A DNA stretch of 64,000 nt from Veillonellales bacterium (lineage in GTDB: Bacteria; Bacillota; Negativicutes; JAAYSF01). A program made the position numbers and the translations under genes. The notes beneath the pieces were generated by a model that was not told the DNA's origin, made no database searches, and saw nothing but the letters and a program-made list of their open reading frames with translations. Of this stretch, positions 6,115-22,140 are shown piece by piece. The stretch's first letter is position 1. Each line of letters begins with the position of its first letter. Location of the stretch: the NCBI GenBank assembly GCA_039680175.1, contig JBDKTO010000074.1:124001-188000 (forward strand), given 5' to 3'.

Positions 6115-6257
6115 GTGGCTCCATATGGAGGTGCTATTGTTCAATTTGCGTCATAAAAATGCTGCAAATGGCAAGAAAGGAAATATTTCACAACATCCCT
6201 CATGTGAGGGATGTACAAAATAACTTTATTGGAATATTATTATAAGTAAAGCTATTT

Positions 6258-6286: not shown

Positions 6287-6310
6287 AAAAGTGAAAAATT
6301 TCATATAGTG

Positions 6311-6502: not shown

Positions 6503-6553
6503 GAGATTACGAAACTGCAAATAGGATTATTCCTTATAGGCAGATTGAGTATG

Positions 6554-6585
6554 CGCTCCCGGACCACCGGGAGCGTTTTGTCTTT
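6554..6585 (+). terminator. Riboswitch 1 expression-platform terminator
   Basis: A 9-bp GC-rich stem (6554-6562 with 6567-6575), 4-nt loop, then TTTTGTCTTT. Its place between riboswitch 1 and the downstream gene is that of a ligand-controlled terminator. Confidence 0.85.
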
Positions 6586-6736
6586 CCCGGCGGGATTTCC
6601 CTATGACCCCATCGTGACAGACAGCCGGAGGAGTTGAAGCCTTTTTTCCCGGCAATATGCGGGTTTATACCGGCAGCTTAAAAAAATCTGCCAGAAGGCC
6701 GGTGAACAATTTTAGAAAACGGAGGAGCGGTCGGTA

Positions 6737-7276
6737 ATGAGGCTAATGATAAATAAAAAAACAAAGCTTGGTTTCGTGGTTCTTGGCATGATTATTTGTT
6801 TAGCGGCTGCGGTTAGCGGCAGTCATTACAGCAGCCGGCCCGGCAAAGCGTTTACTTCCGAAAAAAGCGCTCTGATTTACCTGCAGTCTCAATGGGAAGC
6901 TTTAATCAAATCAACCGAGACAGCCTGGGATACGAGCTGGAATGCCTCTATCCGATCTAAGCCTTCCAATAAAGTAGTACGGCAGAAGCTGCAGCTGAGT
7001 TTGTCCGATTTGCGAAAAGCAGAAAAAGAATTGCGGCTCCTTTTTGAAAATCATTATTCCGAATTTTCTCCGGCTAAGCAAGCAGTATTAAAGCAGATTC
7101 TTGCCAATTCTTTAGCTGCCGTGCAGAAGAGAGAAGCGGCAATAGAAACAGTCCTAACGATTCAGGATGACAGCCGCTATCTTTTTGACATTATGAAGAA
7201 TATGCCGGATATCAGTTTGCAAGCCGATAATTATCTTAAAGCTGCGTCAGAACAATGGGAGCTGCTGGAAAACTGA
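6737..7276 (+). CDS. Unknown membrane-anchored or secreted protein under B12 control
   Basis: 179 residues, not recognised. A basic start is followed by one hydrophobic segment (about residues 11-29), a signal peptide or membrane anchor. The rest is mostly helical, with LSDLRKAEKELR-type charged repeats, and should lie outside the inner membrane. An upstream GGAGGAG site supports the start. It is the only gene between riboswitch 1 and riboswitch 2, so it should be made when corrinoid is scarce. A part in corrinoid capture is plausible but only from context. Confidence 0.75.
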   Translation: MRLMINKKTKLGFVVLGMIICLAAAVSGSHYSSRPGKAFTSEKSALIYLQSQWEALIKSTETAWDTSWNASIRSKPSNKVVRQKLQLSLSDLRKAEKELRLLFENHYSEFSPAKQAVLKQILANSLAAVQKREAAIETVLTIQDDSRYLFDIMKNMPDISLQADNYLKAASEQWELLEN

Positions 7277-7289
7277 AGACAATGAGATG

Positions 7290-7315
7290 TGAAGCATGAT
7301 TTGCGTCCCCTTGCT
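7290..7315. repeat. Intergenic repeat, copy 1
   Basis: A 26-nt segment containing TTTGCGTCCCCTTGCT that recurs almost exactly near 18477-18504, again just behind a gene of this B12-linked region. Function unknown. Confidence 0.55.
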
Positions 7316-7432
7316 TTTAGAAGAAAATAGATAAAAGTGTCGAAAAAAGCAGAAGGAAAATGGTCGACATTATTAACCAATTATGCTAAAATTAACTAAA
7401 CAAAGGAAATAAATGAAAAATAAATAGAATTT

Positions 7433-7632
7433 TGGTACAGGTGCCCGCAAGGGCCTAACAGAGAAGCCGGTGTAATTCCGGCACGGTCCCGCCACTGTAA
7501 GGGGGAGCAAAGCCATGATATGCCACTGGGAGCAAAGATTCCCGGGAAGGTTTGGCAAGAGCGATGATCCGGAGCCAGGAGAACTGCCTGTATGACAATC
7601 ACCGTTGACCTGCGAGCGATAGGGAGGGGGAT
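7433..7632 (+). promoter_or_regulatory. Cobalamin riboswitch 2 (first of three in series)
   Basis: Conserved blocks: ACAGGTGCCC, GAGAAGCCGGTG, CGGTCCCGCCACTGTAA, B12 box AGCCAGGAGAACTGCCTG at 7573-7590, then GACCTGCGAG...GGGAGG. A terminator follows at once and no gene comes before the next riboswitch. Confidence 0.95.
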
Positions 7633-7677
7633 TTCGATGCAGTTATTGCATTTTATCCGGCGGATTTACCGGATTAC

Positions 7678-7724
7678 AAGAAGCCTCTCTGGATTATCAT
7701 CACAGGGAGGTTTCTTTTGTTTTA
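7678..7724 (+). terminator. Riboswitch 2 terminator
   Basis: A 14-bp stem with two G-T pairs (7678-7691 with 7703-7716), an 11-nt loop, then TTGTTTTA. This is the likely expression platform of riboswitch 2. Confidence 0.8.
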
Positions 7725-7729
7725 TCCGC

Positions 7730-7785
7730 CAGGAAGCTGTCAGGCGGCCTAAGCCCGTGTAAGCTTGATGGCGGGCAGCTTCCTG
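7730..7785 (+). other. Perfect inverted repeat between riboswitches 2 and 3
   Basis: CAGGAAGCTG at 7730-7739 pairs perfectly with CAGCTTCCTG at 7776-7785. It could be an RNA helix insulating neighbouring riboswitches or an operator. A possible -35 (TTGAAA, 7787) follows, but no good -10 was found. Confidence 0.4.
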
Positions 7786-7825
7786 ATTGAAATAGCTGAT
7801 TTTACAAAATTTCATACGAAATCAG

Positions 7826-8060
7826 GTATCCGGCATCAGGCCGGATTTAAAAGGGAAGTCCGGTGTGATTCCGGCGCTGTCTCGCAACTGTGAAGGAGAG
7901 CCATGTTTCTGCCAGCCTCTTACCAAGGAGAAATGCGGCGATGCTCCCAAGTCAGGGTACTGCCTGGTTTCCAGTGTTTCATCCGGCGATACGCCATATT
8001 TCCGCCGGATGAGACACTCACATCCGTACAGCCTGCGATGGACAGGTCTGGGACTAAGAA
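7826..8060 (+). promoter_or_regulatory. Cobalamin riboswitch 3 (variant, second of three in series)
   Basis: Same core in divergent form: GGGAAGTCCGGTGTGATTCC, then GCTGTCTCGCAACTGTGAAG instead of the usual GGTCCCGCCACTGTAA, and a B12 box variant AGTCAGGGTACTGCCTGG at about 7951-7968, with a long peripheral hairpin after it. The GTGTGATTCCGGC / CAACTGTGA wording is typical of classical AdoCbl-type elements, so its ligand preference may differ from its neighbours. No gene lies between it and riboswitch 4. Confidence 0.88.
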
Positions 8061-8190
8061 CACTTGCAGGCAGAGGATAGCTTTGTGTTATAACATGGCT
8101 GCAGGTTTGTTAGGTGAAAAAATTCACCTAACAGCCAGAGTGGTTCTTGACCCGGCATTGGCAGCAGGCGGCTTTAGCAAAAAGGTAAAG

Positions 8191-8232
8191 CGTCGATTGT
8201 TCCGCCAGGACGGAATAGTCGGCGTTTTTTTT
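8191..8232 (+). terminator. Riboswitch 3 terminator
   Basis: A 14-bp stem with three G-T wobbles (8191-8204 with 8211-8224), 6-nt loop, then T8: a textbook intrinsic terminator. Confidence 0.9.
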
Positions 8233-8254
8233 ACTCGCGATTAACTGCATAGCG

Positions 8255-8455
8255 TTGGGATAGGTGCCCGAAAGGGCTTAATAGGGAAGCCGGTTGAAGG
8301 CCGGCGCGGTCCCGCCACTGTAACGGGGAGCGAATCCGCAAGGATGTGTCACTGAAGCGTACGCTTTGGGAAGGCGCGGGAGAGCGAAGAACCGGAGCCA
8401 GGAGAACTGCCTGTCTGACAATCACCGTTTGACCTGCGAGGTATGGGGAGGAGAT
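8255..8455 (+). promoter_or_regulatory. Cobalamin riboswitch 4 (third of three in series)
   Basis: Conserved blocks ATAGGTGCCC, GGGAAGCCGGTTG, CGGTCCCGCCACTGTAA and B12 box AGCCAGGAGAACTGCCTG at 8396-8413, ending GACCTGCGAGG..GGGGAGG. It lies closest to the operon that starts with the Skp-like gene at 8695. Confidence 0.95.
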
Positions 8456-8495
8456 TACGCGAAAATCAAGGACGGTTTCCGTCCGGACAGCGTAA

Positions 8496-8520
8496 GCACT
8501 CCCAACAAGGGAGCTTTTTT
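8496..8520 (+). terminator. Riboswitch 4 terminator
   Basis: Short hairpin (CTCCC 8499-8503 with GGGAG 8509-8513, extended by one pair across a bulge) followed by T6. Weak stem but good T-run, correctly placed for riboswitch 4. Confidence 0.7.
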
Positions 8521-8694
8521 AATATATCAGAAAGTAATAAGGATCTTTTCACCAAGTGCTATGAGCCATGAGCCGAAAAGACCGTGCTAGCAGTTTTTCT
8601 TATTCACTCGTTTTATTCCCGGTTTAGCGGCGTACAAGCCGTACTTGTCCATAAGAACGCAAATCAATAACTATGCTGAGAAAGAGGAAATGGA

Positions 8695-9120
8695 ATGAAA
8701 AAAATAACAGGAAGCTTTTCAGTACTGATCGCCGTATTTTTCCTATGGGGTATTCTGACCCCTGCGACGGCCCTGGCCGCCGCTGTCGGCTGTGTCGACC
8801 GGCAGCAGGTCTTCAGCAGCTACCCCGGCATCCAGGCTCTCATGCAGCAGATTCAGAGCCTGCGGGAAGCGGCGCAAAAGGACTACGACGACCGGGGCAA
8901 GGATCTGCCGGAGGCGGAGCGCAAAGCCCTGAACGACACCATCGCCCGGGAGGAAGCCCAGAAGGAAGACGAGCTGATGAACCCGGTGGGTGACAAAATC
9001 GAAGCGTCCATCAAGGCTGTGGCCGGGGAAAAGGGCTTGACCGTAATCATCGACGCAGGAATTGTGGTCTATGGCGGAGCCGGTATCACCGCCGATGTGA
9101 TCGCTAAAGTAAAGCAATAA
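8695..9120 (+). CDS. Skp/OmpH-like periplasmic chaperone
   Basis: 141 residues. Signal peptide over residues 1-29 (Lys start, hydrophobic core, cut near ALAAA). The mature part is the OmpH pattern: VDRQQVF..YP, a charged helical hairpin (about 45-105), and the end motif VVYGGAGITADVI. Expected role: holding outer-membrane proteins unfolded in the periplasm. It is the first gene after the three stacked cobalamin riboswitches and precedes the very large barrel fusion at 10773, which would need such help. It is a paralog of the protein at 4747, but with GC-richer codons. Confidence 0.9.
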   Translation: MKKITGSFSVLIAVFFLWGILTPATALAAAVGCVDRQQVFSSYPGIQALMQQIQSLREAAQKDYDDRGKDLPEAERKALNDTIAREEAQKEDELMNPVGDKIEASIKAVAGEKGLTVIIDAGIVVYGGAGITADVIAKVKQ

Positions 9121-9211
9121 GCGGCGGCGACAGTATAACCTTAGCCTGTTCGTCCTGCCCGGACGCGGTAACGGCGCCCGGACAGGCTGCGATAGGAATT
9201 CTTCCAAGGAG

Positions 9212-9283
9212 GTGAGTTTTTTTCCCATGGACAGTAAGGAAGAGACCTCAGCAGCCGCCAGGCTGTTGATGGTCGCAAGGTAG
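9212..9283 (+). CDS. Possible small ORF (23 or 18 codons)
   Basis: GTG at 9212 or ATG at 9227, both stopping at TAG 9281-9283. The near-perfect Shine-Dalgarno AAGGAGGTGAG at 9206-9216 overlaps the GTG, so the ATG, 11 nt further on, is the likelier start (18 residues beginning MDSKEETSAAARLL). It is too short to recognise. Such a strong ribosome site 100 nt ahead of the next gene suggests a leader peptide, a small protein, or the remnant of a lost gene. Confidence 0.3.
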   Translation: MSFFPMDSKEETSAAARLLMVAR

Positions 9284-9314
9284 GAAAAACAAAAATTAGG
9301 GAGAGGTGTTTAGA

Positions 9315-10700
9315 ATGGCAAGCTCAACAGTAATCGCGACTTTTTACAATTTCGGAGAGACTTCTTTGGACAAAGGGCGGATACGCTTACTTACTTCTGA
9401 TAGTACTAGCAGCCCGGCATATACTCCGGCACCTGGCAGCGGTACGAGTATTGACAATACGGATCTTATTGCTTTTTATTTCAACGGTGGAAATAACTCA
9501 GGCTTACGAGTTCTGGTAGTGGAAAGAGAGTATGACAGCAGTTATAATCAGTTGCCTTGCTACATTTCCGTATACAATCCAAGCTCTTGGACTGCTACAG
9601 TAGCAAGAGATAACAACTATACTTATAGTGGTACCAGCCAAAAAATACTGAATGTGTATGGTATCCTGTCGCCGAGTGGCGGTACTTTTTACGGCACAGA
9701 CTATTCTACCGGCCGAGTTTTCAAGATGACGCACAGCATCAGCGGTTCTACCGAATCGTTGTCTCTTGCCAGCGATTACTATCCATTTGCGGCGACGGAA
9801 GCAGGCGCATCGGTTTATAGTGTAGCTCTCGCGCTGATTGACAGTTATCTTTATGCCATAGCCCAACAGTATACCAAGTCTGGCTCAGGGACTTCGCCGA
9901 GCGATTACACTTATTATGGCAGCATCATTGCCAAACTCAATCCAGCCAGCTTGGGTACGGCGGTTGCCACTACCGATGATGCGGCTCCGAACGCCTTTGA
10001 TATTCAGGTATATGACGGCAATCTTTATGTAACGGCACTGGGCGGTCCGCAGTGGTATGGCGATCCCGATGATCCGTCAACAATCAAATGGAATTACGAA
10101 TCGCGTATTCAAAAGGTCACGACAAGCCTTGTTGTTACCAATCTTGTCCGTCCGGCGGATGACACGGAAACCGGAAAAACCGATGATAAATTCGACATCC
10201 GCTCCCTGGCGATTCTTTCCGACGGAACGGCCTATATTTTGACCGGCTCCTATGACCAAAATTATTCGATGAACGGCCGTTTCTGGAAAACCACGATGGC
10301 AAAAATTAACGGGTTGAGCGATGGTTTGATAACAGATATTACAATTCCGGTTCCTAGACAAGTTGTACCGCCGATATCTTCGGCGTCTGGCTATTTGTGG
10401 GTAGCCTTGCCGGCGGATGATCTCAGCCGGGCTTGGGGGATGCTGGGTGATAATCTCGGGGTTTACGCAACGTCTCTTTCCGGCAGCACAATTGGTGCTG
10501 CTGCGGCCTCAGGTGGCGGATGGACCGCTGGTACTCCTTCCTTTAACGCTATTTCTCTGGCCGAGCCGGCTACAACATTTGCCAAAGAACTCACTGTGCG
10601 CACCTTGCGCGGCTACGTGCATCCGGTTATGGCCTCCGGCGAGGGTATTCCGACAGAAGAAAGAAAGAAATTTATTCAAGCTCATTTTGAAAAGAAATAA
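9315..10700 (+). CDS. Unknown propeller-like protein without signal peptide
   Basis: 461 residues from ATG 9315, chosen over an in-frame GTG at 9306 because GGGAGAGGTG is then well placed. Not recognised. It has no signal peptide or membrane segment. It is rich in Ser, Thr, Tyr and Gly, with repeated strand-like stretches such as GGTFYGTDYSTGRVFKM, SYLYAIAQQY, DGNLYVTALGG and DGTAYILTGSYD, the kind of pattern seen in beta-propellers. The C-terminus changes to a charged helical tail (TEERKKFIQAHFEKK). It lies between the Skp-like gene and the receptor fusion in the B12-controlled operon. Whether it stays in the cytoplasm or leaves by an unusual route is open. Confidence 0.8.
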   Translation: MASSTVIATFYNFGETSLDKGRIRLLTSDSTSSPAYTPAPGSGTSIDNTDLIAFYFNGGNNSGLRVLVVEREYDSSYNQLPCYISVYNPSSWTATVARDNNYTYSGTSQKILNVYGILSPSGGTFYGTDYSTGRVFKMTHSISGSTESLSLASDYYPFAATEAGASVYSVALALIDSYLYAIAQQYTKSGSGTSPSDYTYYGSIIAKLNPASLGTAVATTDDAAPNAFDIQVYDGNLYVTALGGPQWYGDPDDPSTIKWNYESRIQKVTTSLVVTNLVRPADDTETGKTDDKFDIRSLAILSDGTAYILTGSYDQNYSMNGRFWKTTMAKINGLSDGLITDITIPVPRQVVPPISSASGYLWVALPADDLSRAWGMLGDNLGVYATSLSGSTIGAAAASGGGWTAGTPSFNAISLAEPATTFAKELTVRTLRGYVHPVMASGEGIPTEERKKFIQAHFEKK

Positions 10701-10710
10701 TTGACAGAAC

Positions 10711-10747
10711 TTAGAAGAAGGGGCGGTAACTTCGCCCCTTCTTCTAA
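10711..10747 (+). other. Perfect 15-bp intergenic hairpin
   Basis: TTAGAAGAAGGGGCG (10711-10725) pairs perfectly with 10733-10747 across a 7-nt loop, without a T-run. It probably protects or punctuates mRNA between the 9315 gene and the fusion gene, or attenuates downstream expression. Confidence 0.6.
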
Positions 10748-10772
10748 AGTATGCATCTGGGAGGGTGCCTTT

Positions 10773-13700
10773 TTGCAAAGAAAAAAACAGCGTAAAAAAC
10801 CTATAGCGTGGAGCCTTAGAGCCTGTTCACTGGCGCTTTTGCTTACTACTTCGTATACATTGCCGCTGTATGCGTCTCAAACAGTTAATAATGAAAATGT
10901 TGATAGGACCATGGTCGGGAAAGCGGGGGATACCCACACCATATCCGGTACTGTGACAACCTATGCCACAGACACTCAGGATGGTGATTTAGATGCTGTG
11001 AATATGTATGCGGGCGAATATCAATCTGCCATAACCTTGCTCACCGGCAGTGTCTGGCGTCCGCTTGACGCGGCAGATTCAGCGGTTGTGAATGTTTATT
11101 CCTCCTTTCGAATGGAGTCGGGTTCCATGGTTGATCTGGCCTATAAATACAGCGCGGACAATGGCTATGTCGACAATATAGCGGCAGGATATACAACATG
11201 GCCAGTAGGGAGTACTGTGGGATCTGAGAAGGCTCCTTACCGTCAAATGAATATCACAAACGGCAAGTTTGGCGATGATCTTACCTTCCGCATCAATCTG
11301 GGCACACACCTTTCCACGCTTAACCCAGCAGGGACAAAATATGTTTACCGGGGTGGCTGTAGCGATTCCGTTACCCTGAAGAATCCAAGCCATATTGACG
11401 GTGTAACAACTTCGAATATTAAACTGGAATATGTACTGAATAAAAATTTTGCGGCAGGCTACAATTCAAATTTCTCCTGGTCAACTGTCGCCGATACAAC
11501 GCTTAAAGGCGAAGTTGCCAATGTTTTTGGTATTACGAATGCTACCAAGAATCAAAGCCTAATGGACTCATTCCAAGTTACCGGGGAGGCAACCAATCAA
11601 GTTGACGGCGCTCTCAATAAGTATGATATTTCTACGGAACTGGTACAAACAACCAGTACTGCTAAAAGTAAATATTACAGTGTTACTTGGACAGCGCAAA
11701 AATCAAACTCTCTTTCCCAGGGAGCTTACTCTACCGCCAATGCAGCCCTTGCGACCCGCAATTTATGGCGGATTGAGGACGGCCTGTTCTGGAAGCGCGG
11801 CGACGACCGGCGGTTTGCCAACCGCGGCATTGCCAAGGACGATTTCAGTGACCGGGAAGGCGTGTGGACCAATACCTGGCGGGGAAAATACACTTATGAC
11901 GGCGTGCAGAACTCCAGCTTTGGCCAGATGTACAGCGGCATCCAGGTCGGCTATGACAAGCTGCGGGACCGGGAACTGCTGGGCGGCAAGGTCTATACCG
12001 GACTGTTTTTCAGCAAAATGACCGCCGATGCTGATTTCAACGCCCAGAATACCGGCGGCGCTGCCTACAACAGCGGCAAAGGCGATCTGGACAGCACCGG
12101 CCTCGGCGCTTATATGCTCTGGGAAGGCAAAAAAGGACACTATCTGGATGCCATGGTGCGCTGGAGCAAAATCGACAATGGCTATACGTATACCGATTCC
12201 TTCGGCGACAGCTACCGGAAGGATTTTGACGCCAAAACCTACGGCATCGGCGCCCGTTACGGTTTGCGCATTGATAAAGGCAACGGCTGGTTTATGGAAC
12301 CGCAGGTCGGCCTTTCCTACGGCATAATGCGCTCCTTTAATTTCCGTATGGACAACAGTTTAAAGTATTCCCAGGACCAGATGGACATGCTGATCGGCCG
12401 CGCCGGACTGTCCGTCGGCAAGAGCTACGGGCAGGGCGATCACACTGGCGAAGCGTATCTCAAGCTGACCGCCAATCATGACTTCATGGACGGCGGCAAC
12501 GCCATGATGTACGCCATGCAGAACAGTACAAATCCAAGCCTGAATGACGTCGTTCTGGCCTCGCAAAAGGTGGACACCCTGGCCGGCAAGGACACCTGGT
12601 ATGACGTGACGCTGGGCAGCAATTTCAAGCTGGGCGACAGCCGGGACGGCTGGCTGGAAGCCAATAAATCTTTCAGCGGCAAGGTCAACACCGACTGGCA
12701 GATTAACGGCGGTGTCGCCTGGCATTGGGGCGGTCCATCCAAAGTCAAAAAGGCGGCAGCGGTGAATACGGCTGTGCAGAGTCCGCTTGCGGACACCGCG
12801 AAGGAAGGCGCTGCCGTTGACAAAGGTGCAACCCCCAATTTGCCTGAGGGCAATGGTTCAGCGCCGCAGACGAATGCAGCCAACGGTGATAATGGCAATA
12901 TGAACATTGCCGGCGCGGCTGAACCCATATCGCCCGGCGGCACCAATGCCACCGGGACAGCCGGTACGCTGCCGCCGGGCAGTACGGGTGAGTTTACGTT
13001 CGCTCCGGTAGTGGTCGAAGCCGCCCGGCCGGACTGGGAGAAAAAACTCTCGCCGGGAACGGTCTCCGTCATTGAGGTGCCGAAATACGCCGGCGAGCAT
13101 AAGACATTGGCCGATCTGCTGCAAACGGTGCCCGGCGTTTATATCGACCGGATCTCCGGCGGCGGCACCGGCCATTATTCGACGGTGCGGGTGCGCGGCT
13201 CCTCGGCCAGCGAGGTCAATATCTACATGGACGGCGTTTTAGTGAATACCGGCAGCGAGCAGGCGGTCAACCTGGAAAACCTCAATATCGACAATGTGGA
13301 GCGCATCGAAGTCTATCGCGGCTATATCCCGGCCCGGTTTGCCGGGGCGGCCATGGGCGGTGCGATCAACATCGTGACGAAAAAACCGGATAAAACCGGC
13401 GGCAAGGTCAGCTGCGGCCTGCGGTCCTTCGGCGGCCAGAAATACAATTTGGAGACGACCGCTCCGGCCGGCGACGGCAGCCTGCTGCTGGCGGTTAACC
13501 GTGACCAGGCCAAAGGAGATTTTAAATATAATAAAATTGTGGATACGTATGATGTCATAAAATGGGGAATTGTAAATGGAAAGCAAGTTCCAGTAGAAAC
13601 CTATCCGCTGACACGCTGGCGCCAGAACAACGGCTATGAGGATAACAACATCCTGGCCAAATGGCAGGATAAAAACTGGTTTGTGAAGCTGAACTATATC

Positions 13701-15095
13701 AATAATAAGACCCATACGCCGGGCAGCGTGAACGGCTACCTGATCGATGTGCCGGACAGTATGCTGCCGCCAGAGATCACAACTGCTAGTAAAGCGTTGC
13801 GTGCCGGCACGATTGATACGGAGAAAACCGAGCTGTCCTTCGGCCGCCGCCAGCAAAGCGGCAATGTGGAATGGGGTTGGAAGCTGGATGCCATTCACCA
13901 GAATAAAGACGCGTTATATTTGCGGTACGATAACGGCAACAGGGACATTGCCTTTGGAACCAATACCTTCCGCAACAATACCTATAACGCATCCGTTGAC
14001 GGCACCTGGAAGATGGGGGAAAGCCACCTGCTGGAATTCCTGGCCACCGCCAGCAAGGAAACCATGAAGGTGCGCTTTACCGCCGACGATGCCTGGAGCA
14101 CGAACTGGGGCAAGAAATTTGAGCAGTATTTCCTGCCGAAATACAATATGAGCAATTACTACCTCCAGCTCCAGGATACGATGAAACTGGACGATGCCGG
14201 CAGTCTGACCTTTACGCCCCTGGTGCGGGCCCAAAAATCCGATATCGGCATTGACGTGAAAGAAGGCGAAGGCTGGCTGTACAGCTATAACCTGGGCCTG
14301 AAGAAAAAGTGGAATGATCAATGGACCACCTGGGCCACCTATGGTACTTATAACAAACTGCCGAGTTGGTATGAACTGTTTGGCGATGGTGTCAATCTTG
14401 TGTCAAAATGGCATGAATATAACAGCATCGCTGAATGGAGTCCGGAAACGTCTGCGGAGCATGGGAAAAATTGGGATGTATCCGTTAACCGGACCGGAAA
14501 GATGTTCGGATCGGACAGCGATACCACCCTGACGTATTTCCACCGCAACTCGGAAAATCTGATGACGACTATGTTTAACCCCCTATACGGGGCAACCTGG
14601 TATGCGAATTACGGTGCCGGAAAGATTCAGGGGGTCGAGCTTAGCAGCAAAATGCATTGGGAAAAATTTGACTTTACGCTAAGCACGACATGGCAGGATT
14701 CTCTTACTACGAAAGGATATACCGCTTATGCGAATATGAGCATGACCAGCTGGCAGGGGCAGCCCTTCCCCTGGACGCCGGAGTGGACGGTCAACGCTCG
14801 TCTGGATTACCGTTTCCCCGGCAATAAGTTCAGCGTCTTCGGTGAATACAACTGGACGGATGAGCTAAGCTGGTACAATGGTTCGGGTTCAAGGTACTAC
14901 TATGAAGCCATGGGGCTCTTCAATATCGGTATGAAGTATTCATTCAATAAGCAGTATAAACTGATTGCCGGTGTGAATGACATCGCCAACAAGGGGCCGA
15001 AACAATGTGTTGTTTACAGTGACAGCAATAGAAAAAATGTTGCCTATCCGCAGCAGGGCCGTACCTATTATATGACGGTGGAATATACATTCTGA
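10773..15095 (+). CDS. Two-barrel fusion: autotransporter plus TonB-dependent receptor
   Basis: 1440 residues from TTG 10773; GGGAGGGTG lies 6 nt upstream, and starting further up would put a hairpin inside the gene. Order: signal peptide (about 1-37, KKQRKK then a hydrophobic core); passenger (about 38-330); a complete autotransporter barrel (about 335-655, ending GGVAWHWGG); a 90-residue Ala/Gly/Pro/Asn linker; a TonB-box-like stretch (FAPVVVEA, about 745); a plug domain with VRVRGSSASEVNIYMDG and MGGAINIVTKKP; and a roughly 550-residue receptor barrel ending in an aromatic strand (YYMTVEYTF). The frame is continuous. An autotransporter barrel ends in the periplasm, so the linker and TonB box would be correctly placed. 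Cobalamin riboswitch control suggests corrinoid or cobalt capture. I know of no standard family with this architecture. Confidence 0.9.
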   Translation: MQRKKQRKKPIAWSLRACSLALLLTTSYTLPLYASQTVNNENVDRTMVGKAGDTHTISGTVTTYATDTQDGDLDAVNMYAGEYQSAITLLTGSVWRPLDAADSAVVNVYSSFRMESGSMVDLAYKYSADNGYVDNIAAGYTTWPVGSTVGSEKAPYRQMNITNGKFGDDLTFRINLGTHLSTLNPAGTKYVYRGGCSDSVTLKNPSHIDGVTTSNIKLEYVLNKNFAAGYNSNFSWSTVADTTLKGEVANVFGITNATKNQSLMDSFQVTGEATNQVDGALNKYDISTELVQTTSTAKSKYYSVTWTAQKSNSLSQGAYSTANAALATRNLWRIEDGLFWKRGDDRRFANRGIAKDDFSDREGVWTNTWRGKYTYDGVQNSSFGQMYSGIQVGYDKLRDRELLGGKVYTGLFFSKMTADADFNAQNTGGAAYNSGKGDLDSTGLGAYMLWEGKKGHYLDAMVRWSKIDNGYTYTDSFGDSYRKDFDAKTYGIGARYGLRIDKGNGWFMEPQVGLSYGIMRSFNFRMDNSLKYSQDQMDMLIGRAGLSVGKSYGQGDHTGEAYLKLTANHDFMDGGNAMMYAMQNSTNPSLNDVVLASQKVDTLAGKDTWYDVTLGSNFKLGDSRDGWLEANKSFSGKVNTDWQINGGVAWHWGGPSKVKKAAAVNTAVQSPLADTAKEGAAVDKGATPNLPEGNGSAPQTNAANGDNGNMNIAGAAEPISPGGTNATGTAGTLPPGSTGEFTFAPVVVEAARPDWEKKLSPGTVSVIEVPKYAGEHKTLADLLQTVPGVYIDRISGGGTGHYSTVRVRGSSASEVNIYMDGVLVNTGSEQAVNLENLNIDNVERIEVYRGYIPARFAGAAMGGAINIVTKKPDKTGGKVSCGLRSFGGQKYNLETTAPAGDGSLLLAVNRDQAKGDFKYNKIVDTYDVIKWGIVNGKQVPVETYPLTRWRQNNGYEDNNILAKWQDKNWFVKLNYINNKTHTPGSVNGYLIDVPDSMLPPEITTASKALRAGTIDTEKTELSFGRRQQSGNVEWGWKLDAIHQNKDALYLRYDNGNRDIAFGTNTFRNNTYNASVDGTWKMGESHLLEFLATASKETMKVRFTADDAWSTNWGKKFEQYFLPKYNMSNYYLQLQDTMKLDDAGSLTFTPLVRAQKSDIGIDVKEGEGWLYSYNLGLKKKWNDQWTTWATYGTYNKLPSWYELFGDGVNLVSKWHEYNSIAEWSPETSAEHGKNWDVSVNRTGKMFGSDSDTTLTYFHRNSENLMTTMFNPLYGATWYANYGAGKIQGVELSSKMHWEKFDFTLSTTWQDSLTTKGYTAYANMSMTSWQGQPFPWTPEWTVNARLDYRFPGNKFSVFGEYNWTDELSWYNGSGSRYYYEAMGLFNIGMKYSFNKQYKLIAGVNDIANKGPKQCVVYSDSNRKNVAYPQQGRTYYMTVEYTF

Positions 15096-15102
15096 TGATG
15101 GC

Positions 15103-15134
15103 GCCGGGCGGCTGTTGTGTATCCGCCGCCCGGC
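15103..15134 (+). other. Perfect GC hairpin after the fusion gene
   Basis: GCCGGGCGGC (15103-15112) pairs with GCCGCCCGGC (15125-15134), 12-nt loop, no T-run. Likely an mRNA stability or partial termination element inside the operon. Confidence 0.55.
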
Positions 15135-15160
15135 CCAGAATCACTAAGGAGCGACTAAGG

Positions 15161-15754
15161 ATGGATGGGAAACGTAAGTTGTTGATTCTTAAACTGGACC
15201 TTATCGACAGTATGCGGGAAATCGATGCGATCCGGCAAGCAGTTGCGCAGAAAGCCGCTGGTTTGGTAGAAGTGCGTGCTGTCGGCTGCGAAAAACCCGA
15301 GGACATCATAACTGCCGTTGCCGATGACCAGCCGGACTGGGTCCATATCGTCGGCCGCAGCAATGACGAAGCACTGATTTTTTCCGGCGGCAAAAGCGGG
15401 GAAAGTCAGTTTGACCGCATTCGTTTGCTGAAACATTTGCGCCGGGCGGTGCCGGGTCTTGCCTTGCTTACGCTGAACAGCAAGCTGGACAACCGGGATT
15501 TGGGCAATATGGGGCAGCTCCGGACCGTGATCGGCATGCAAGACGGCTACAATCCTTTAGCTTCCCGCCAGTTCATGCCCCGCTTTTACGCCAATATCTG
15601 TCTGGGAATGCCGCTGGCACCGGCCGCAAAAACCGCTATTGAAGGGATGCAGCCGGAAGTGGTTCAGCATGGCGGCATGCCGTCCATGTGCTTCAGCCGC
15701 AGCATTGACCCGGAAACCTTTCTATTTTTGCCAAGAGAAACGGCAGTGAATTAG
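15161..15754 (+). CDS. CHAT-like (caspase-fold) protein with degenerate catalytic sites
   Basis: 197 residues from ATG 15161, chosen for the AAGGAG site 8 nt upstream; an in-frame ATG at 15095 overlaps the fusion stop. No signal peptide. The layout follows single-domain CHAT proteins: KLLILKLDL strand, then WVHIVGRS (61-67) where active members have H-x-x-G-H-G, ALLTLNSK (101-108) where they have L-N-A-C, then VIGMQDG, a helix with FYANICLGMPL, and a short tail. The second His is Arg66 and the Cys position is Lys108, so it should lack protease activity. Perhaps it acts as a sensor or scaffold. The fold assignment is by eye and moderately sure; the degeneracy holds only if it is right. It neighbours a papain-like protease gene. 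Confidence 0.55.
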   Translation: MDGKRKLLILKLDLIDSMREIDAIRQAVAQKAAGLVEVRAVGCEKPEDIITAVADDQPDWVHIVGRSNDEALIFSGGKSGESQFDRIRLLKHLRRAVPGLALLTLNSKLDNRDLGNMGQLRTVIGMQDGYNPLASRQFMPRFYANICLGMPLAPAAKTAIEGMQPEVVQHGGMPSMCFSRSIDPETFLFLPRETAVN

Positions 15755-15787
15755 CAGCGGGCTTGCCGCCTGGCGGCAGGCCATGGG

Positions 15788-15819
15788 ATGACAGGCCCGG
15801 CAACCACCGGGCCTGTCAT
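15788..15819 (+). terminator. Perfect 13-bp hairpin after the CHAT-like gene
   Basis: 15788-15800 pairs with 15807-15819 across a 6-nt loop, followed by ATATTTCT. Weak T-run: partial terminator or RNA-processing hairpin. Confidence 0.6.
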
Positions 15820-15891
15820 ATATTTCTGCCTGCCCGGCAGAGTGATTTACGGTCTAAGCAATATTTTTAACAGAAGAGGAGCAATGACCCG

Positions 15892-16347
15892 ATGGAAAAT
15901 GGCAATATAAAAGCAAACAAGTTTCAGGAATTTTTAACAGCCGGTCGGCTTACCTGCTTTGGCGTACAGGAAATGAACGACGCGGTGCATACCGTACTCT
16001 TTCGCACCAATCTGGAGGTCGGCGGCCAGCAGCTGCCGGTCTTGTTCGTTACCGACGACAGCCTGTATGCGACGATCCAGGTGCGGGTCGTGCCGGCGGC
16101 CGTCCGGGACGGGAACAGCCACAGCGTCCTCACCTTTGTCAATGAACGGAACCGGACCTATAAGAACTTCAAGTATTTTATCGGCGAGGATAATTCCCTG
16201 ATTTTGGATGTCTGTCTGACGGCTGAGCCGGAACAATTCGAACCGCAGCTTGTCAGTCTGACGCTTGACATCATCCTGCGGCACCTGACGGACGAATACC
16301 CGGTGATCATGCGTACAATCTGGGCCGGGGAAATCCCGCAGAGCTGA
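15892..16347 (+). CDS. YbjN-like (type III secretion chaperone-like) small protein
   Basis: 151 residues, no signal peptide. The AGAGGAGC site about 9 nt upstream supports ATG 15892. It is a paralog of the protein at 5264, sharing VLFRTNLEVGGQQLPVLFV..DSLYATIQVR, the VNERNRTYKNFKY segment and the YPVIMRTIW tail. It ends 18 nt before the papain-like gene, so the two are probably co-translated. By fold analogy it may bind a partner polypeptide, with the protease or the surface proteins as candidates; this is inference. Confidence 0.6.
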   Translation: MENGNIKANKFQEFLTAGRLTCFGVQEMNDAVHTVLFRTNLEVGGQQLPVLFVTDDSLYATIQVRVVPAAVRDGNSHSVLTFVNERNRTYKNFKYFIGEDNSLILDVCLTAEPEQFEPQLVSLTLDIILRHLTDEYPVIMRTIWAGEIPQS

Positions 16348-16365
16348 AAAAATGGAGGTATTGCG

Positions 16366-17262
16366 ATGAAGCAGCATGTCATTCTTTCCGACAACAGAAA
16401 GGTAGGGACCGGCTGGCGGCCGCCCCTGCCGGATTTGCGCGACTATAACGAGTGTCATCCCAAGCTGCAGGAAGCCATAAAGAAGCTGGGGATCGATCCG
16501 GATGCCCCTTTGCCGGCCAAGACCGACCTGCGCCAGTGGTGCTCCCCCGTTCAGGACTAGGGGCAGCTGGGCGCCTGTACCGCCCACGCGGCGGCGGGCA
16601 TTGTCGAATATTTCGAGAATCGCTCCTTTTCCCGGACTGTGACCGCCTCGCGGCTGTTCATCTACAAGAATGCCCGCAGCCTGGAGGGCGCGGCCGGCGA
16701 CAGCGGCACGTACATCCGGGATACCATGGGGGCGCTGGCCCTCTGCGGCGTGCCGCCGGAAAAATACTGGCCCTATACCGACAAAGACCCGGATTTTGAT
16801 AAGGAACCGACCGCCTTCGTCTATGCCATCGCCGACAATTATGAGGCGCTGCAGTATTTCCGCCATGACGCCGCCAGCGTCAATCCAACGCCGGCCGATG
16901 TGCTGGCGAGCGTGAAAAAGTATCTGGCTGCCGGTGTGCCGTCCATGTTCGGCTTTTACGGCTTCAACTCCATGGACGCATCCGATGTTCCCGGCGGCAT
17001 TCCCGCCCCCGGCCCGGACGAGCAAGCCAGCTGGGGCCACGCCGTGGCCGCTTTCGGCTATGACGACGCACTCAAGATCAAAAATACCCAGTATAACCGG
17101 GAAACCACCGGCGCCCTCCTTATCCGCAACTCCTGGGGCAGCGATTGGGGCGACCATGGGTACGGCTGGCTGCCCTATGAATACGTTCTGAACAAGCTGG
17201 CCACGGATTTCTGGTCGCTTTTAAACATGGACTGGGTCGCCGCCGACCAGTTCGGCGTGTAG
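16366..17262 (+). pseudogene. Papain-family (C1A) protease frame cut by an in-frame TAG
   Basis: ATG 16366 after GGAGG. The frame reads 64 codons, meets TAG at 16558-16560, then continues cleanly to the normal stop at 17262. The TAG occupies codon 65 in the context PVQD-stop-GQLGACTAHA; papain-like enzymes have the oxyanion-hole Gln here, six residues before the catalytic Cys (codon 71). One C-to-T change would turn CAG into TAG. Downstream the catalytic His (WGHAVAAFGYD, codon 225) and Asn (IRNSWGSDWG, codon 255) are intact, so decay, if any, is recent. No signal peptide or usual propeptide is seen. Options: a fresh nonsense mutation, a sequencing error, or readthrough. Restart at GTG 16639 would lose the Cys. 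TAG also ends this gene and the 15161 gene, so general recoding is unlikely. Confidence 0.85.
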
Positions 17263-17282
17263 AGAACCGAGGAGGGATAAGC

Positions 17283-18410
17283 ATGAGTTTGATCGACTGG
17301 TTTACCAATTTGTTTGTGAAGGAATCGAAGCACTATGTCTTTGCGCCGGCTGCATCCGACGTGGAAAAGATTGAGTTTCAGGAAGGGCAGCACTACTTCC
17401 GCCTGCGGCTGGCGGAAATGTTCTTAAAAGACGATCGTAAATTATTCCGCAGCTATGTTCCCGTTGTTTCTTCGGTCGCAGCGCTGCAATTCGGCTCTAA
17501 TGATGCCCAGCAATTGCCCGGCTTGGCCGGTCCGCTGGCGCTGAATTTGAATGAAAGCTCCCTGGGACATGGCGTGGAGCTGAATTACGCCCTGACCAAT
17601 CTGGTGCCCTATCGCGGCGGCAATGTGTCCATCAGCGCCGCCTTACTGGCCTATGTCAATAAAGACTATTTGCAGTCATTCCTAAGTCTCGCCAGCAGCA
17701 TTTCCAGCCTGCTGACCATCGGCCAGCTGTCAACCACCCTTAAGGTGGTTGACAGCACGGTAAACGGCATTCAGGACCTGCTGGACGGCGGGGACAAAGA
17801 CATCCGCCTGGTGTTTCACAATGAATATTCCGGTACGGACAGCCTGGGCGGCGTGTCCCTCACAAGCGGCTATTTTGCCGTCGTTGGCGCTGATGCCGGC
17901 AAATTTCAGCCGGAAAAACTGTTCGTCAAAAACTCGCAGCTTTGTTTCGGCGACGAGCAGTCATCGGCCAAGCCGCTCACCGGCTACGACTATATGCTGT
18001 TCAGCGTGGAAGCGGCGCTGTACCGGGACGACTTCCGCTATTTCACCGAATACAACAGTTTGCTTTATACCGCCATTGAAAAGGGCATGACGAATAAAAG
18101 CGAAGGCGACGCCGTTATCCAGGCGGCTATGCTGGCCGTATTCAAATCGGCTGATCTGACCTATGTCGATAAAACCCGGGTAGCGGCCGCGCTGAAACAA
18201 GAGTATGAAGAACGGCTCGCCGTCCTGCAGGACAAGGGGATCAAAGCCGCGGCCGGCATGACAAGCGAGTGGCTGAACGACCGGGCGCTGGCGATTGATC
18301 CGGAAGGGGTATGGCGGCAGATTTCGCCGCTTTTGGCTGAAAACGAGCCGGATGACGCGGCCATCGCCGGCAGGATTCTCGGCATGATCGGGAATGGTGA
18401 AATAGTCTGA
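17283..18410 (+). CDS. Unknown 375-aa protein
   Basis: Not recognised. GAGGAGGG lies 8 nt ahead of ATG 17283, 20 nt after the protease frame. No signal peptide. A beta-rich N-terminal half (HYFRLRLAEMFL, YVPVVSSVAALQF, and LVPYRGGNVSISAALLAYV, the most striking segment) leads to a hydrophobic helical stretch at about 130-165 (SFLSLASSISSLLTIGQL), then strands (DIRLVFHNEY, GYFAVVGAD) and a helical C-terminal half. Tight coupling to the papain-like frame suggests a partner, inhibitor or substrate of the protease. Confidence 0.8.
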   Translation: MSLIDWFTNLFVKESKHYVFAPAASDVEKIEFQEGQHYFRLRLAEMFLKDDRKLFRSYVPVVSSVAALQFGSNDAQQLPGLAGPLALNLNESSLGHGVELNYALTNLVPYRGGNVSISAALLAYVNKDYLQSFLSLASSISSLLTIGQLSTTLKVVDSTVNGIQDLLDGGDKDIRLVFHNEYSGTDSLGGVSLTSGYFAVVGADAGKFQPEKLFVKNSQLCFGDEQSSAKPLTGYDYMLFSVEAALYRDDFRYFTEYNSLLYTAIEKGMTNKSEGDAVIQAAMLAVFKSADLTYVDKTRVAAALKQEYEERLAVLQDKGIKAAAGMTSEWLNDRALAIDPEGVWRQISPLLAENEPDDAAIAGRILGMIGNGEIV

Positions 18411-18476
18411 TTCATGCACCGGCTATGCGACGGAGTCTGATGATGCTTCGCCAGAAGAGCAGTGAAAATGAAATGC

Positions 18477-18519
18477 GAAGCATTATTTGCGTCCCCTTGC
18501 TCCTGCGTCCCCTTGCTCC
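18477..18519. repeat. Intergenic repeat, copy 2, with 16-bp tandem duplication
   Basis: The 7290-7315 sequence recurs, and TGCGTCCCCTTGCTCC is present twice head to tail (18488-18503 and 18504-18519). It is non-coding, between the 17283 gene and the next receptor gene. Confidence 0.6.
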
Positions 18520-18632
18520 TACAAAATAGAAAACGACAGAGGGGTAGAGAAGTATCGCATAGGATGAGAAAGTGACGACAAATGCATAAAGAGGTACAAG
18601 GATTATATAAAAAATTATTAAAGGGGCTTAGG

Positions 18633-21515
18633 ATGAATAAAAAACGGTATTTAGAGAAGAAAATAGCTATTGCGCTGCTTTTGGGGCTAACCTGCGTAGG
18701 CTCAAATGCCTATGCGGAAGAAGACGGCACTCAGAATACGGCTGAACCAAAATATACACTGGAAGCAATAACGGTCGAGGCGAAACGGCCGGACTGGGAG
18801 AGCAAGCTGTCGCCCGGTACGGTGACGATTATCAGGCCTGACGATTATCAAGGCGAACAGAAAACATTGCCGGAACTCCTAAAGCAGGTACCGGGCGTGC
18901 ACGTGCGCGAGCTTAACGGCAAAGGCCAGTATACCACCGTCAGCGTGCGCGGTTCCACGGCAGCGCAGGTAGGCGTATTTGTAGACGGAGTGCTGTTCAA
19001 CCTTGGCGGGGATGCTGCGGCGGATATTTCCACGATTCCGGTCCAGAATGTCGAGCGCATCGAAGTGTACCGCGGTTATATTCCGGCGCGGTTCGGCGGT
19101 ACCTTCATGGGCGGCGTGATTAATATCGTGACGAAGAGGCCGACGAAAGAGAATGTGCAGGCCAGCATCGGCCAAAGTTCCTTCGGCGGTTATAAGGGAA
19201 GTCTGCAGGTGGATGCTCCCTTGGGAAAAGGCAGCCTGATGGTGGGCGTCAATCACGAACAAAGTGACGGAGATTTCAAATACAAGAACTTTTCATATGA
19301 TATTGATAAAAACTATCAACAATACATGATGACAGCTGCAAGCTATCAACAAAACACGATAAGTGAATACAATTCCGCTATGAAAAAGCTGGGTATTTAT
19401 GATGAAAATGGTAATGTGCAAAAGTTGAAGCCAATTATATCTTCAGGAACAACAGCGGCAGATTATAAAAAGAACTATGAAGACAATTTTACGCTCCTGA
19501 AGACGGCTTGGGATAAGTATGATTCAAAAATAGAAGCTATATTGGCAGACAATGATGCTTTATTGTTAAAAGGCATCCAAAATAATAAATATTTTACAAA
19601 TTATGATAATATAAATGCTCTTTATGATACTTCAGCAGTGAATCAGGCAAAGATGTATCAAAGTCTTGTTTCAGGGAATAAATTTAGAGTTAGTCTGTAT
19701 ACACTTAATCAGGCTGGCTACACGGTAACCGATTATAGCAGCTACATCAATGCCTATAACAGCTACAAGCAGACCAATTTTACCAGTATACAGGATATAC
19801 TTGGCAATGATTGGAAAGACGGTACGCATGGAGCTGCTTTTAAGGATTTTCTGGAACGCTGGAAAGGCGACTCAGGGTTACGGCAAATAGAACAGCTTAA
19901 GGAAACCTATGAATTTGCCAAAAAATATTACGGTATGGCCGGCGAGGCATCAACGTCTGAACGTTGGCGTAAAGCGAATGACTATAAGAATACGGATGCC
20001 ATTATCAAATGGCAGGATGACCATTGGCTGGCCAAGGCTACCTGGAAACAAATAGAGAGGCATCTGCCATATCCTTACAACAACAATTATGGTGATTTGC
20101 CTAGTGTAGATACGAACGCTGAATTTAATGATATTTTAGATATTTATTATCACCGCAATCAAAAACTGACAGCCAAAGAAGCGTTGCTGGGAAGGCGCGA
20201 TACGGCAGGCAACCTGGAATGGGGCTGGAGCGTAAACTATCTGGACCAGAATAAAGACTATTATGTAGACAACTGGCAGTGGATAGACCAGAATGCAGGT
20301 GCTGTTCTCAATACCTACGCAGCCAACAGTCTGTGGAGCAAATTCGACAGCCGCCGTTTAGGCGTCAAGTTCGACGGCAGCTATAAGGCCGGCGACAAAC
20401 ATTTAATAGAGTTCTTACTAGACGGGTCCAAAGAAAAAATGGATATCGACGGCTGGCGCATGTTTGACTATAAAAATTCCAGCCAAGATACCAGAAAAAG
20501 ATGGCGCAACTACTATGAACAAAAAATTTTTAATGCCCAAGTGCAGGATACCATCACTCTGAATGAAAAGAAAGACTTTTGGCTGACGCCGAGCGTCCGC
20601 TACAACAGGTCAACTATCTTGGGGCGCAGCGACAGGTATGATGCGGCAAACGATCCCCAGAAGGTAAAATGGTTCCATAAAGAAGACGTGCAAACAAATG
20701 ATAAAGCGACATGGCAAATGGCTTTGAAAAAGAAGGTGAGTGACAACCTGACTATCAGGGCAACGGGCGGCACCTATTACAGACTGCTGAACATGTACGA
20801 AATCGCCGGTGACGGCGCGGGCATCTGGCCGATGCCGAATGTTGGCGGTACGGACAGCGTATTTCCATTGCCGGAAGAAGGGAGCCAGTGGGATTTGAGC
20901 GCCATTTGGGATGGCAAGGCTTTGGGGGCTGACAGCGCAAAATTCCAGCTGACCTATTTCGGACGGGATTCCGACCATCTGCTGCAATTGATGAGCCGGC
21001 ATTTCTTCTTCTTCTACACGAATGCGGCCAAGGCAAAAGTCAACGGCCTAGAAATGCAGGCGGATATGTCCTGGCAGAAATGGGACCTTAACCTGCAGGC
21101 AACCTATACGAAGCCCAGTCATGTAAGCTACGACATGACTTGTCTGCCAGGTTATGACAAAAATACGACTTCCGGTTATCTGACGTATATACCGGAGTGG
21201 GAAGGCACAGTGCGCGTAACTTACCGTCCGAATACAAGCTGGAGCCTATTTACGCAGCTGCGTTATGTAGCCGATATGTACACTGACCCGATACCGCTTA
21301 CTACAGGAGCAACTGAAAACCAGTCTTCCTTAACGGTTTGGGATCTGGGGGTCAAACACAAAATAGATAAATCATTCCAATTGTCAATGGGCGTCAACGA
21401 TATATTTAACAAAGCAATTGACATGTATAAGAAAACTTATGAAGGCGAAGCGGTCAATATCCAGTACCCGATCCAAGGCCGTACTTACTATGCTACTTTG
21501 CAGTATAAATTCTGA
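18633..21515 (+). CDS. TonB-dependent receptor with large extracellular-loop insertion
   Basis: 960 residues from ATG 18633; the in-frame ATG 18582 has a poor ribosome site and would spoil the signal peptide. Signal peptide about 1-30, TonB-box-like YTLEAITVEA, plug with VSVRGSTAAQVGVFVDG and MGGVINIVTKRP, barrel ending YYATLQYKF. It shares the unusual RPDWE(S/K)KLSPGTV motif and YRGYIPARF with the receptor half of the fusion at 10773, so both belong to one subfamily. Residues about 221-450 (nt 19293-19980) form an AT-rich, Tyr/Asn/Lys-rich, mostly helical insert where the fusion has only about 30 residues; it should project from the cell surface. Ligand unknown; corrinoid is a guess from context. 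Confidence 0.9.
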   Translation: MNKKRYLEKKIAIALLLGLTCVGSNAYAEEDGTQNTAEPKYTLEAITVEAKRPDWESKLSPGTVTIIRPDDYQGEQKTLPELLKQVPGVHVRELNGKGQYTTVSVRGSTAAQVGVFVDGVLFNLGGDAAADISTIPVQNVERIEVYRGYIPARFGGTFMGGVINIVTKRPTKENVQASIGQSSFGGYKGSLQVDAPLGKGSLMVGVNHEQSDGDFKYKNFSYDIDKNYQQYMMTAASYQQNTISEYNSAMKKLGIYDENGNVQKLKPIISSGTTAADYKKNYEDNFTLLKTAWDKYDSKIEAILADNDALLLKGIQNNKYFTNYDNINALYDTSAVNQAKMYQSLVSGNKFRVSLYTLNQAGYTVTDYSSYINAYNSYKQTNFTSIQDILGNDWKDGTHGAAFKDFLERWKGDSGLRQIEQLKETYEFAKKYYGMAGEASTSERWRKANDYKNTDAIIKWQDDHWLAKATWKQIERHLPYPYNNNYGDLPSVDTNAEFNDILDIYYHRNQKLTAKEALLGRRDTAGNLEWGWSVNYLDQNKDYYVDNWQWIDQNAGAVLNTYAANSLWSKFDSRRLGVKFDGSYKAGDKHLIEFLLDGSKEKMDIDGWRMFDYKNSSQDTRKRWRNYYEQKIFNAQVQDTITLNEKKDFWLTPSVRYNRSTILGRSDRYDAANDPQKVKWFHKEDVQTNDKATWQMALKKKVSDNLTIRATGGTYYRLLNMYEIAGDGAGIWPMPNVGGTDSVFPLPEEGSQWDLSAIWDGKALGADSAKFQLTYFGRDSDHLLQLMSRHFFFFYTNAAKAKVNGLEMQADMSWQKWDLNLQATYTKPSHVSYDMTCLPGYDKNTTSGYLTYIPEWEGTVRVTYRPNTSWSLFTQLRYVADMYTDPIPLTTGATENQSSLTVWDLGVKHKIDKSFQLSMGVNDIFNKAIDMYKKTYEGEAVNIQYPIQGRTYYATLQYKF

Positions 21516-21606: not shown

Positions 21607-22140
21607 ATGAAAAAAATAATAATCGTATTCTTAATGCTGTTGTGCATAGTTCCATCTTTTTCGGTCCAAGCAGCCGAAAATGCGGGAGAGCCTGGAACTA
21701 AAATTTGGGAGATGGAAGTTTCCCGGGAGAAAAAACTGACTCCGGCGGAGGAGGAGAGGGCGCGCTGGGCAGCAGTGTTTGCTAATGACATTGGTATCTA
21801 TATGTTTGATTGCAAATCCCTAGTAATGGTTGAAAATAAGGGAAATGCTGTCAATGTTCTTGCGAGAACAATATTTAACAATCCCGAGGTCGTAAGTCGG
21901 TTGAATGAACAGTACAAAGCAAAACTTAAGGCCGATGATAAGGTTGGTTTCAGTGACATGGAGATGACATTTAATGTTGACAAAAGGCAGTATGCTGTGA
22001 CAGAAACTAAACTCTACAGTGCTCAAGGAGTTTTGCTGGAAGATATAAAGACAAAAAAAATAGTATTCAAAGAGGTACCGGTTAAGACTTTTGCTGACTC
22101 TTTGTACGAAGTGACGAAAAGTTTTGCACGCAATCAGTAA
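21607..22140 (+). CDS. Unknown secreted protein
   Basis: 177 residues. Clear signal peptide (about 1-23, cut near VQAAE). The mature protein is small and mixed alpha/beta; the second half (MEMTFNVDKRQYAVTETKLYS) reads like a beta sheet. An AAGGAGCGG site precedes ATG 21607. Not recognised; it probably lies in the periplasm. It follows the receptor gene by 91 nt and may be its last operon partner. Confidence 0.75.
   Translation: MKKIIIVFLMLLCIVPSFSVQAAENAGEPGTKIWEMEVSREKKLTPAEEERARWAAVFANDIGIYMFDCKSLVMVENKGNAVNVLARTIFNNPEVVSRLNEQYKAKLKADDKVGFSDMEMTFNVDKRQYAVTETKLYSAQGVLLEDIKTKKIVFKEVPVKTFADSLYEVTKSFARNQ

Follow-up and report, generated by a model that had tools for sequence, protein, structure and literature searches.

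Why should an operon under corrinoid control, with genes for surface receptors, also carry genes for protease-like proteins of the cytosol? The question is raised by positions 8695-21515 of a 64,000-nucleotide stretch of Veillonellales DNA (the window), which belongs to contig C74 of a 4.08 Mb Negativicutes-like genome; 14 of the 15 cobalamin riboswitches of the genome lie on this contig. The initial annotation, made from the letters alone, described an unusual corrinoid-controlled operon in which genes for surface receptors are joined by genes for protease-fold proteins of the cytosol, and this description held, riboswitches being found in relatives directly 5' of the same cytosolic genes. 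All of the genes that it listed were present, as judged by Rfam for the riboswitches, by Pfam matches and by orthologues. What the first reading missed was the likeness of an encoded beta-propeller to BtuG. Taken as a whole, the locus is probably a corrinoid capture and uptake operon of the BtuB/BtuG kind, and for the uptake core this function is very likely.

The operon and its BtuG-like propeller

The features of the operon, all on the plus strand, are as follows; amino acids are abbreviated aa and open reading frames ORF.

6298-6480, +, cobalamin riboswitch 1 (RF00174, 117 bits)
7422-7605, +, cobalamin riboswitch 2 (RF00174, 121 bits)
7807-7981, +, cobalamin riboswitch 3, a shorter and weaker variant (RF00174, 71 bits)
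8245-8428, +, cobalamin riboswitch 4, the closest to the operon (RF00174, 111 bits)
8499-8525, +, terminator-like hairpin with a T run, directly 3' of riboswitch 4 (pattern scan)
8695-9120, +, OmpH/Skp-like periplasmic chaperone with a signal peptide (PF03938, E 3e-16)
9206-9274, +, AAGGAGGTGA and a hairpin, a conserved leader element 5' of the propeller gene
9315-10700, +, BtuG-like beta-propeller without a signal peptide, predicted corrinoid-binding lid (profile, fold and composition)
10701-15095, +, fusion of an autotransporter barrel, a TonB plug and a receptor barrel, 1464-aa ORF (Pfam, E 1e-32, 5e-18 and 2e-23)
15161-15754, +, CHAT-like pseudoprotease, catalytic His replaced by Arg and Cys by Lys (Pfam CHAT, E 0.066, below cut-off)
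15788-15819, +, 13-bp hairpin (13 perfect pairs) that separates the CHAT-like from the YbjN-like gene and has a weak T tail (surrounding fold z -5.1)
15892-16347, +, YbjN-like protein (PF10722, E 0.0012)
16366-17262, +, papain-like C1 peptidase frame, interrupted by TAG (PF00112, E 5e-12 when read through)
16558-16560, +, in-frame TAG replacing the codon of the invariant oxyanion-hole Gln65
17283-18410, +, 375-aa protein paired with C1, without a Pfam family
18582-21515, +, second TonB-dependent receptor, BtuB-like (Pfam plug and barrel)

BtuG is a femtomolar B12 binder that is encoded beside btuB, is controlled by riboswitches and was reported to be exclusive to Bacteroidetes (PMC6143338). 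The propeller at 9315-10700 matched no Pfam family. A profile of 12 propeller sequences (A3), searched against all PDB sequences, gave three matches under E 0.01, all of them BtuG, 8ptf and 8ptd at 2.9e-5 and 8blw at 1e-4; 8BLW is BtuB1G1 (PMC10404256). An AlphaFold2 model made from seven sequences had a low mean pLDDT (predicted local distance difference test) of 57.7, and the top 11 of the 976 chains aligned with it were all BtuG-type, with Z scores of 24.1-22.8, the next being 21.3. The net charge of the propeller, -3.3 per 100 aa, fits the negative B12-binding face of BtuG (PMC10404256). Linkage to a btuB-type gene under a B12 riboswitch, which characterizes BtuG, was found, while the lipobox cysteine and the lipoprotein export signal were not; the lid was consequently not filed as BtuG, though the system appears to work like BtuBG. 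From profile and model, the propeller is predicted to have the seven-bladed fold of BtuG and to act as a BtuG-like lid, the ligand of which would be a corrinoid. Given this likeness, the main function of the operon is most likely B12 capture and uptake.

The plug and TonB barrel expected of BtuB were present by Pfam. In the fusion, the autotransporter barrel spans residues 388-652, the plug 784-888 and the receptor barrel 1031-1426, and a signal peptide follows an internal start of the ORF. The best NCBIfam match of the second receptor was TIGR01779 TonB-B12, below cut-off; TIGR01779 scores of 78 and 121 bits did not reach the BtuB cut-off of 599.7. The RPDWE motif, noted earlier in the second receptor, was found 3' of the TonB box in both. 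A 177-aa secreted protein is encoded 3' of the second receptor (window 21607-22140), and its relatives adjoin pairs of TonB receptor and propeller genes in several genomes.

The search set for relatives comprised 300 Negativicutes genomes. Direct comparison of gene content and order gave 18 Negativicutes loci in which B12 riboswitches, a Skp-like gene, a propeller, a fusion or plain TonB receptor, and CHAT-like, YbjN-like, C1 and 375-aa genes occur in varying subsets. The usual order is riboswitches, Skp, then propeller and fusion receptor in either order, followed by subsets of CHAT-like, C1, YbjN and 375. The named hosts are Sporomusa termitida (plasmid pSPTER), S. acidovorans, S. ovata, Sporomusa sp. 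KB1 and two metagenome-assembled genomes (MAGs), of a Sporomusaceae member and of Megamonas. In nearly all loci the receptor adjoins the propeller, and the Skp-like gene is found 5' of the receptor in relatives as well. The initial annotation had named in advance the lack of a conserved neighbourhood as grounds for giving up its proposal; the neighbourhood recurs in many Negativicutes genomes, and the refutation failed.

All four cobalamin riboswitches 5' of the operon reached the RF00174 gathering score (71-121 bits). Across the loci, riboswitches were found 5' of the receptor, the propeller, C1-375 and YbjN-375. The distance from the riboswitch end is 134 bases for C1-375 at locus L053 and about 150 bases for YbjN-375 at L047, which places these cytosolic genes in the corrinoid regulon of those genomes. 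The hairpin at 8499-8525 is a possible expression platform of riboswitch 4. A short aptamer of about 70 bits beside full-strength ones is recurrent (window 7807-7981; L048 4728; L049 3337; L052 17039; L141 15778; L137 11430), as if the riboswitch stacks had a conserved two-aptamer logic. A 179-aa predicted secreted or anchored protein, not assigned to a family, is encoded between riboswitches 1 and 2 (window 6737-7276).

The leader of the propeller gene has a conserved element of its own. AAGGAGGTGA is a perfect anti-Shine-Dalgarno match with two copies in 182 kb, and together with the hairpin it lies 83-144 bases upstream of 14 of the 26 free propeller genes; the hairpin is retained despite sequence change in six loci. 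A comparison of 9206-9274 with Rfam gave no match at E up to 1.

Under the proposed mechanism, the riboswitches would switch the operon on when B12 is scarce, and corrinoid would repress it. The BtuG-like lid would bind corrinoid and pass B12 to the neighbouring receptor of BtuB type, found in this lineage as a fusion with an autotransporter barrel, and the Skp-like protein in the periplasm and the YbjN-like protein in the cytosol would chaperone these very large outer-membrane polypeptides. In the most speculative part, the 375-aa protein might be the partner or the substrate of the C1 protease.

Export of the propeller and the chaperone genes

A lid should work outside the cell, and the propeller of the window has no visible means of leaving it. 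No hydrophobic leader was seen in 33 free signal-less copies (the window copy and 32 others), and a signal peptide hidden upstream was looked for in three frames at 14 signal-less genes and rejected. In five other free copies, a clear Sec signal runs as far as the conserved start of the signal-less ones, as in ...AALA-ATENLFGYTV compared with M-SENLFAYTI, and nine copies follow a Sec signal as the N-terminal passenger of autotransporters of 1.7-4.7 kaa (thousand aa). The genes for these passenger forms adjoin TonB receptors, and most are also accompanied by YbjN and Skp.

The missing Sec signal is what favours a cytosolic propeller that handles corrinoids there, in storage, delivery or repair, with only the autotransporter-fused and Sec-bearing relatives outside. 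The composition of the signal-less form does not fit this location. Charged residues make up 12.5% of the signal-less copies and 12.3% of the Sec-bearing free copies, compared with 20-23% of cytosolic proteins, and S/T/G/N/Y make up 43% of both propeller forms, compared with 24-25% of cytosolic proteins. Moreover, the propeller is strictly paired with receptor genes, and on the tree the signal-less, Sec-bearing and passenger states are interleaved, with four changes, the signal state switching at least 2-3 times. Since the signal-less form resembles its Sec-bearing relatives and not cytosolic proteins, it too probably works outside the cell, and a cytosolic corrinoid handler is rather doubtful.

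The YbjN-like protein is a candidate cytosolic chaperone. PF10722 scores of 19.5 and 21.1 bits fell below the gathering score of 22; orthologues conserved at 70-76% uphold this sub-threshold match. Part of a sister system lies upstream in the window:

132-4565, +, C-terminal portion of an autotransporter-like ORF of 2970 aa, the start of which lies 5' of the window
4747-5175, +, Skp-like paralogue
5264-5728, +, YbjN-like paralogue (Pfam PF10722 comparison)

At L176 1972-16566, an 1847-aa autotransporter-TonB fusion is followed by the 2970-aa ORF and then by the Skp and YbjN paralogues; a Pfam search of the 2970-aa ORF gave no match. YbjN and Skp also accompany giant autotransporters without C1 or 375, so they look like receptor chaperones. 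A role of YbjN in serving the signal-less lid was weakened by the same pairing, these giant autotransporters being exported by Sec.

The corrinoid setting extends further along C74. Positions 64926-203880 of the contig (window 24122-63006 and flanks) form a corrinoid island of about 140 kb, in which, by eye, five ORFs (about 1240-1290 aa each) resemble CobN and several others chelatase I/D, beside genes for ABC and ECF-type transporters and TonB/ExbB-like genes.

The CHAT-like, C1 and 375-aa genes

The CHAT assignment, sub-threshold by Pfam, is upheld by orthologues. The degenerate catalytic positions reported initially are real: GHG is changed to GRS and NVC to NSK, in the window protein and in three orthologues (L049, L137 and L141). 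CHAT proteins with both the catalytic His and Cys are encoded in the S. acidovorans and S. ovata loci. Judged by alignment, the window protein is a conserved pseudoprotease, and most of the loci encode such a pseudoenzyme.

The papain-like frame was recognized correctly as to family, and it proved to be interrupted. With TAG read as Gln, Peptidase_C1 scored 46.8 bits against a cut-off of 20.7 (E 5e-12), and the C1 profile matched the bacterial cysteine protease 3OIS at E 2e-39 over 283 positions; codon 65 is nevertheless a stop. The relatives are intact and 69-83% identical among the aligned operon loci. Gln65, Cys71, His225 and Asn255 are invariant in them, and eight have a continuous frame with all four. 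The window gene retains the Cys71, His225 and Asn255 codons; its TAG precedes the catalytic Cys by six residues, and the ORF of 207 aa that is open 3' of the TAG lacks this Cys. As in papain, loss of the oxyanion Gln should impair catalysis. No other full-length close C1 match in the 300 genomes has an internal stop. The dN/dS (ratio of nonsynonymous to synonymous substitution rates) of the window copy, 0.07-0.14, is that of intact pairs, and any decay must therefore be recent.

Genes for PylS (over cut-off) and for tRNA-Pyl with the anticodon CTA (CUA) are present in the genome. With this machinery, putative read-through of the C1 TAG with pyrrolysine is possible. TAG terminates 18 of the 125 ORFs on the contig. 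The pyrrolysine locus looks complete (L178 6370-13000, contig C91 of the same genome); it has neighbouring ORFs that we take to be PylB, PylC and PylD, together with two ORFs that resemble a methylamine methyltransferase gene split by TAG near 12,330-12,385, as would be expected for mtmB.

The 375-aa family has identities of 62-80%, and within the set the strongest conservation is that of C1 and 375 (dN/dS 0.07-0.14). Of the 300 genomes, 13 have the 375-aa family, 27 the close C1 family and about 31 a free propeller. The 375-aa gene occurs with C1 in 11 of its 13 genomes (Fisher p 2.5e-11, inflated by relatedness of the genomes and indicative only) and with a free propeller in 12 of 13 (Fisher p 1.9e-12, likewise inflated). 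The association of the genes is far beyond chance.

Neither the CHAT-like nor the 375-aa protein has a sequence relative of solved structure in the PDB. For the 375-aa fold, Foldseek gave no match under E 0.08, a second structural comparison gave mostly C2-domain rows at Z near 6, a lead below significance, and the model (pLDDT 62), compared also with a bacterial gasdermin fold in mind, had no confident match. Distant relatives at 22-28% identity lie 5' of CHAT plus TPR and FlhA-like genes in Ktedonobacteraceae and Chloroflexi, 5' of CHAT plus TPR in a Verrucomicrobiales MAG, and 5' of a caspase in a VMAP-C/MoxR/EAD10 neighbourhood in Pseudanabaena. Judged by these neighbours, the 375-aa protein is repeatedly associated with cysteine proteases, and its own wider context is conflict systems. 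FlhA-C-like (FHIPEP) proteins occur in the CHAT operons of Chloroflexi and Ktedonobacteraceae (L065 7630-9201, L068 3485-9254).

Tentatively, CHAT-like, C1 and 375 may form a single cytosolic module, perhaps one that checks the quality of the signal-less lid and the receptor precursors or helps them to mature. The neighbours of the distant relatives also invite another view, in which the receptor is guarded by a conflict or defence module and detected entry leads to release or cleavage of the 375-aa protein with its protease. Phages and bacteriocins use BtuB-type receptors as a way into the cell, and active CHAT is present in the two Sporomusa loci. However, MoxR, vWA and STAND genes are absent here: the tested proteins of 5264-21515 included no MoxR, vWA or third ternary component, and PADLOC defence families gave no meaningful match. 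C1 and 375 evolve slowly instead of diversifying, and CHAT is mostly a pseudoenzyme. No relative of 375 was found in 50,697 phage records. Such a guard is unlikely. A phage or plasmid origin of 375 was rejected, given the lack of a phage relative and a single plasmid copy, on pSPTER of S. termitida.

It would be more surprising, and we consider it improbable, if signal-less lids reached the surface by an undescribed non-Sec route that the cytosolic YbjN, CHAT-like, C1 and 375 set, made of conflict-system parts linked to type III export proteins, serves or polices under B12 control; the type III link comes from the FlhA-like neighbours of distant 375 relatives.

The proposal of the initial annotation, that the system senses whether the receptor is occupied and signals this by cleaving a partner protein, could draw on the intact C1 triad of relatives and the C1-375 pairing in many loci. 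No signalling route was found; the conserved set is without a transmembrane or periplasmic transducer, and the riboswitch already senses corrinoid. With a pseudo-CHAT, an amber codon in the window C1 gene and C1 alone elsewhere, the proposal has no direct support and is very improbable. That YbjN-C1-375 are an unrelated operon adjoining by chance, as the hairpin at 15788-15819 might suggest, is contradicted already by recurrence in many genomes, by riboswitches directly 5' of C1-375 (L053) and YbjN-375 (L047) and by the absence of a consensus plus-strand promoter in 15006-18582, and is scarcely credible.

Several observations weigh against the uptake operon with a cytosolic module as proposed here: 1) the lid is without a lipobox, lipid anchor or signal peptide, 2) the confidence of the propeller model is low, 3) many signal-less propellers occur in genomes without C1, 375 or CHAT (e.g. 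G017, G018, G032 and G055), 4) C1 orthologues elsewhere also stand alone, without receptors, 5) the window C1 gene bears a TAG and 6) the hairpin at 15788-15819 may uncouple YbjN-C1-375 from the riboswitch transcript. It follows from the third that the module is not needed for lid export, and a requirement of C1 or 375 for signal-less lids was rejected, several genomes having a lid without either.

Relation to known systems

If the uptake reading is true, a BtuG-like family, in signal-less, Sec-bearing and passenger forms, extends across Negativicutes, and the uptake of B12 with the aid of a lid has a wider range, by evolution or by spread, than was described. A testable question is then how a surface-type protein without any signal leaves the cell. 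Conflict-type protease partners tied to a vitamin regulon were unexpected, as was the presence, in a bacterium that uses pyrrolysine, of an amber codon at the position of a catalytic residue. A search of the open-access literature found no paper on such fusions or lids in Negativicutes.

Two known protease families have members close to these genes. The relatives of the C1 protein share the Gln-Cys-His-Asn of C1A papain-like peptidases such as 3OIS; unlike these, the window gene has TAG for the Gln codon and lies within a receptor operon. The CHAT-like protein can be aligned to active CHAT proteases (PF12770) of the S. acidovorans and S. ovata loci, but its catalytic His and Cys are replaced, it is smaller and it has no repeats. 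Among conflict systems, the vWA-MoxR ternary systems (PMC8195603, which cites Kaur et al. 2020) come closest through the Pseudanabaena neighbourhood, which has a 375-aa relative, clan CD protease folds and a propeller gene. The Negativicutes operons differ in being without MoxR, vWA, VMAP and EAD genes and in their control by B12 riboswitches.

With BtuB-BtuG of Bacteroides, the locus shares a B12 riboswitch, a TonB receptor gene beside a propeller gene, negative net charge of the propeller and, as predicted from profile and model, its BtuG type. It differs in that the lid is without a lipobox or signal peptide and has a passenger form in relatives, that the receptor is fused to an autotransporter barrel, that protease-like genes are present and that the host belongs to Negativicutes. 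On balance, we judge it to be a BtuB/BtuG-like system of diderm Firmicutes with three unusual traits, an autotransporter-fused receptor, a signal-less lid and conflict-type protease partners.

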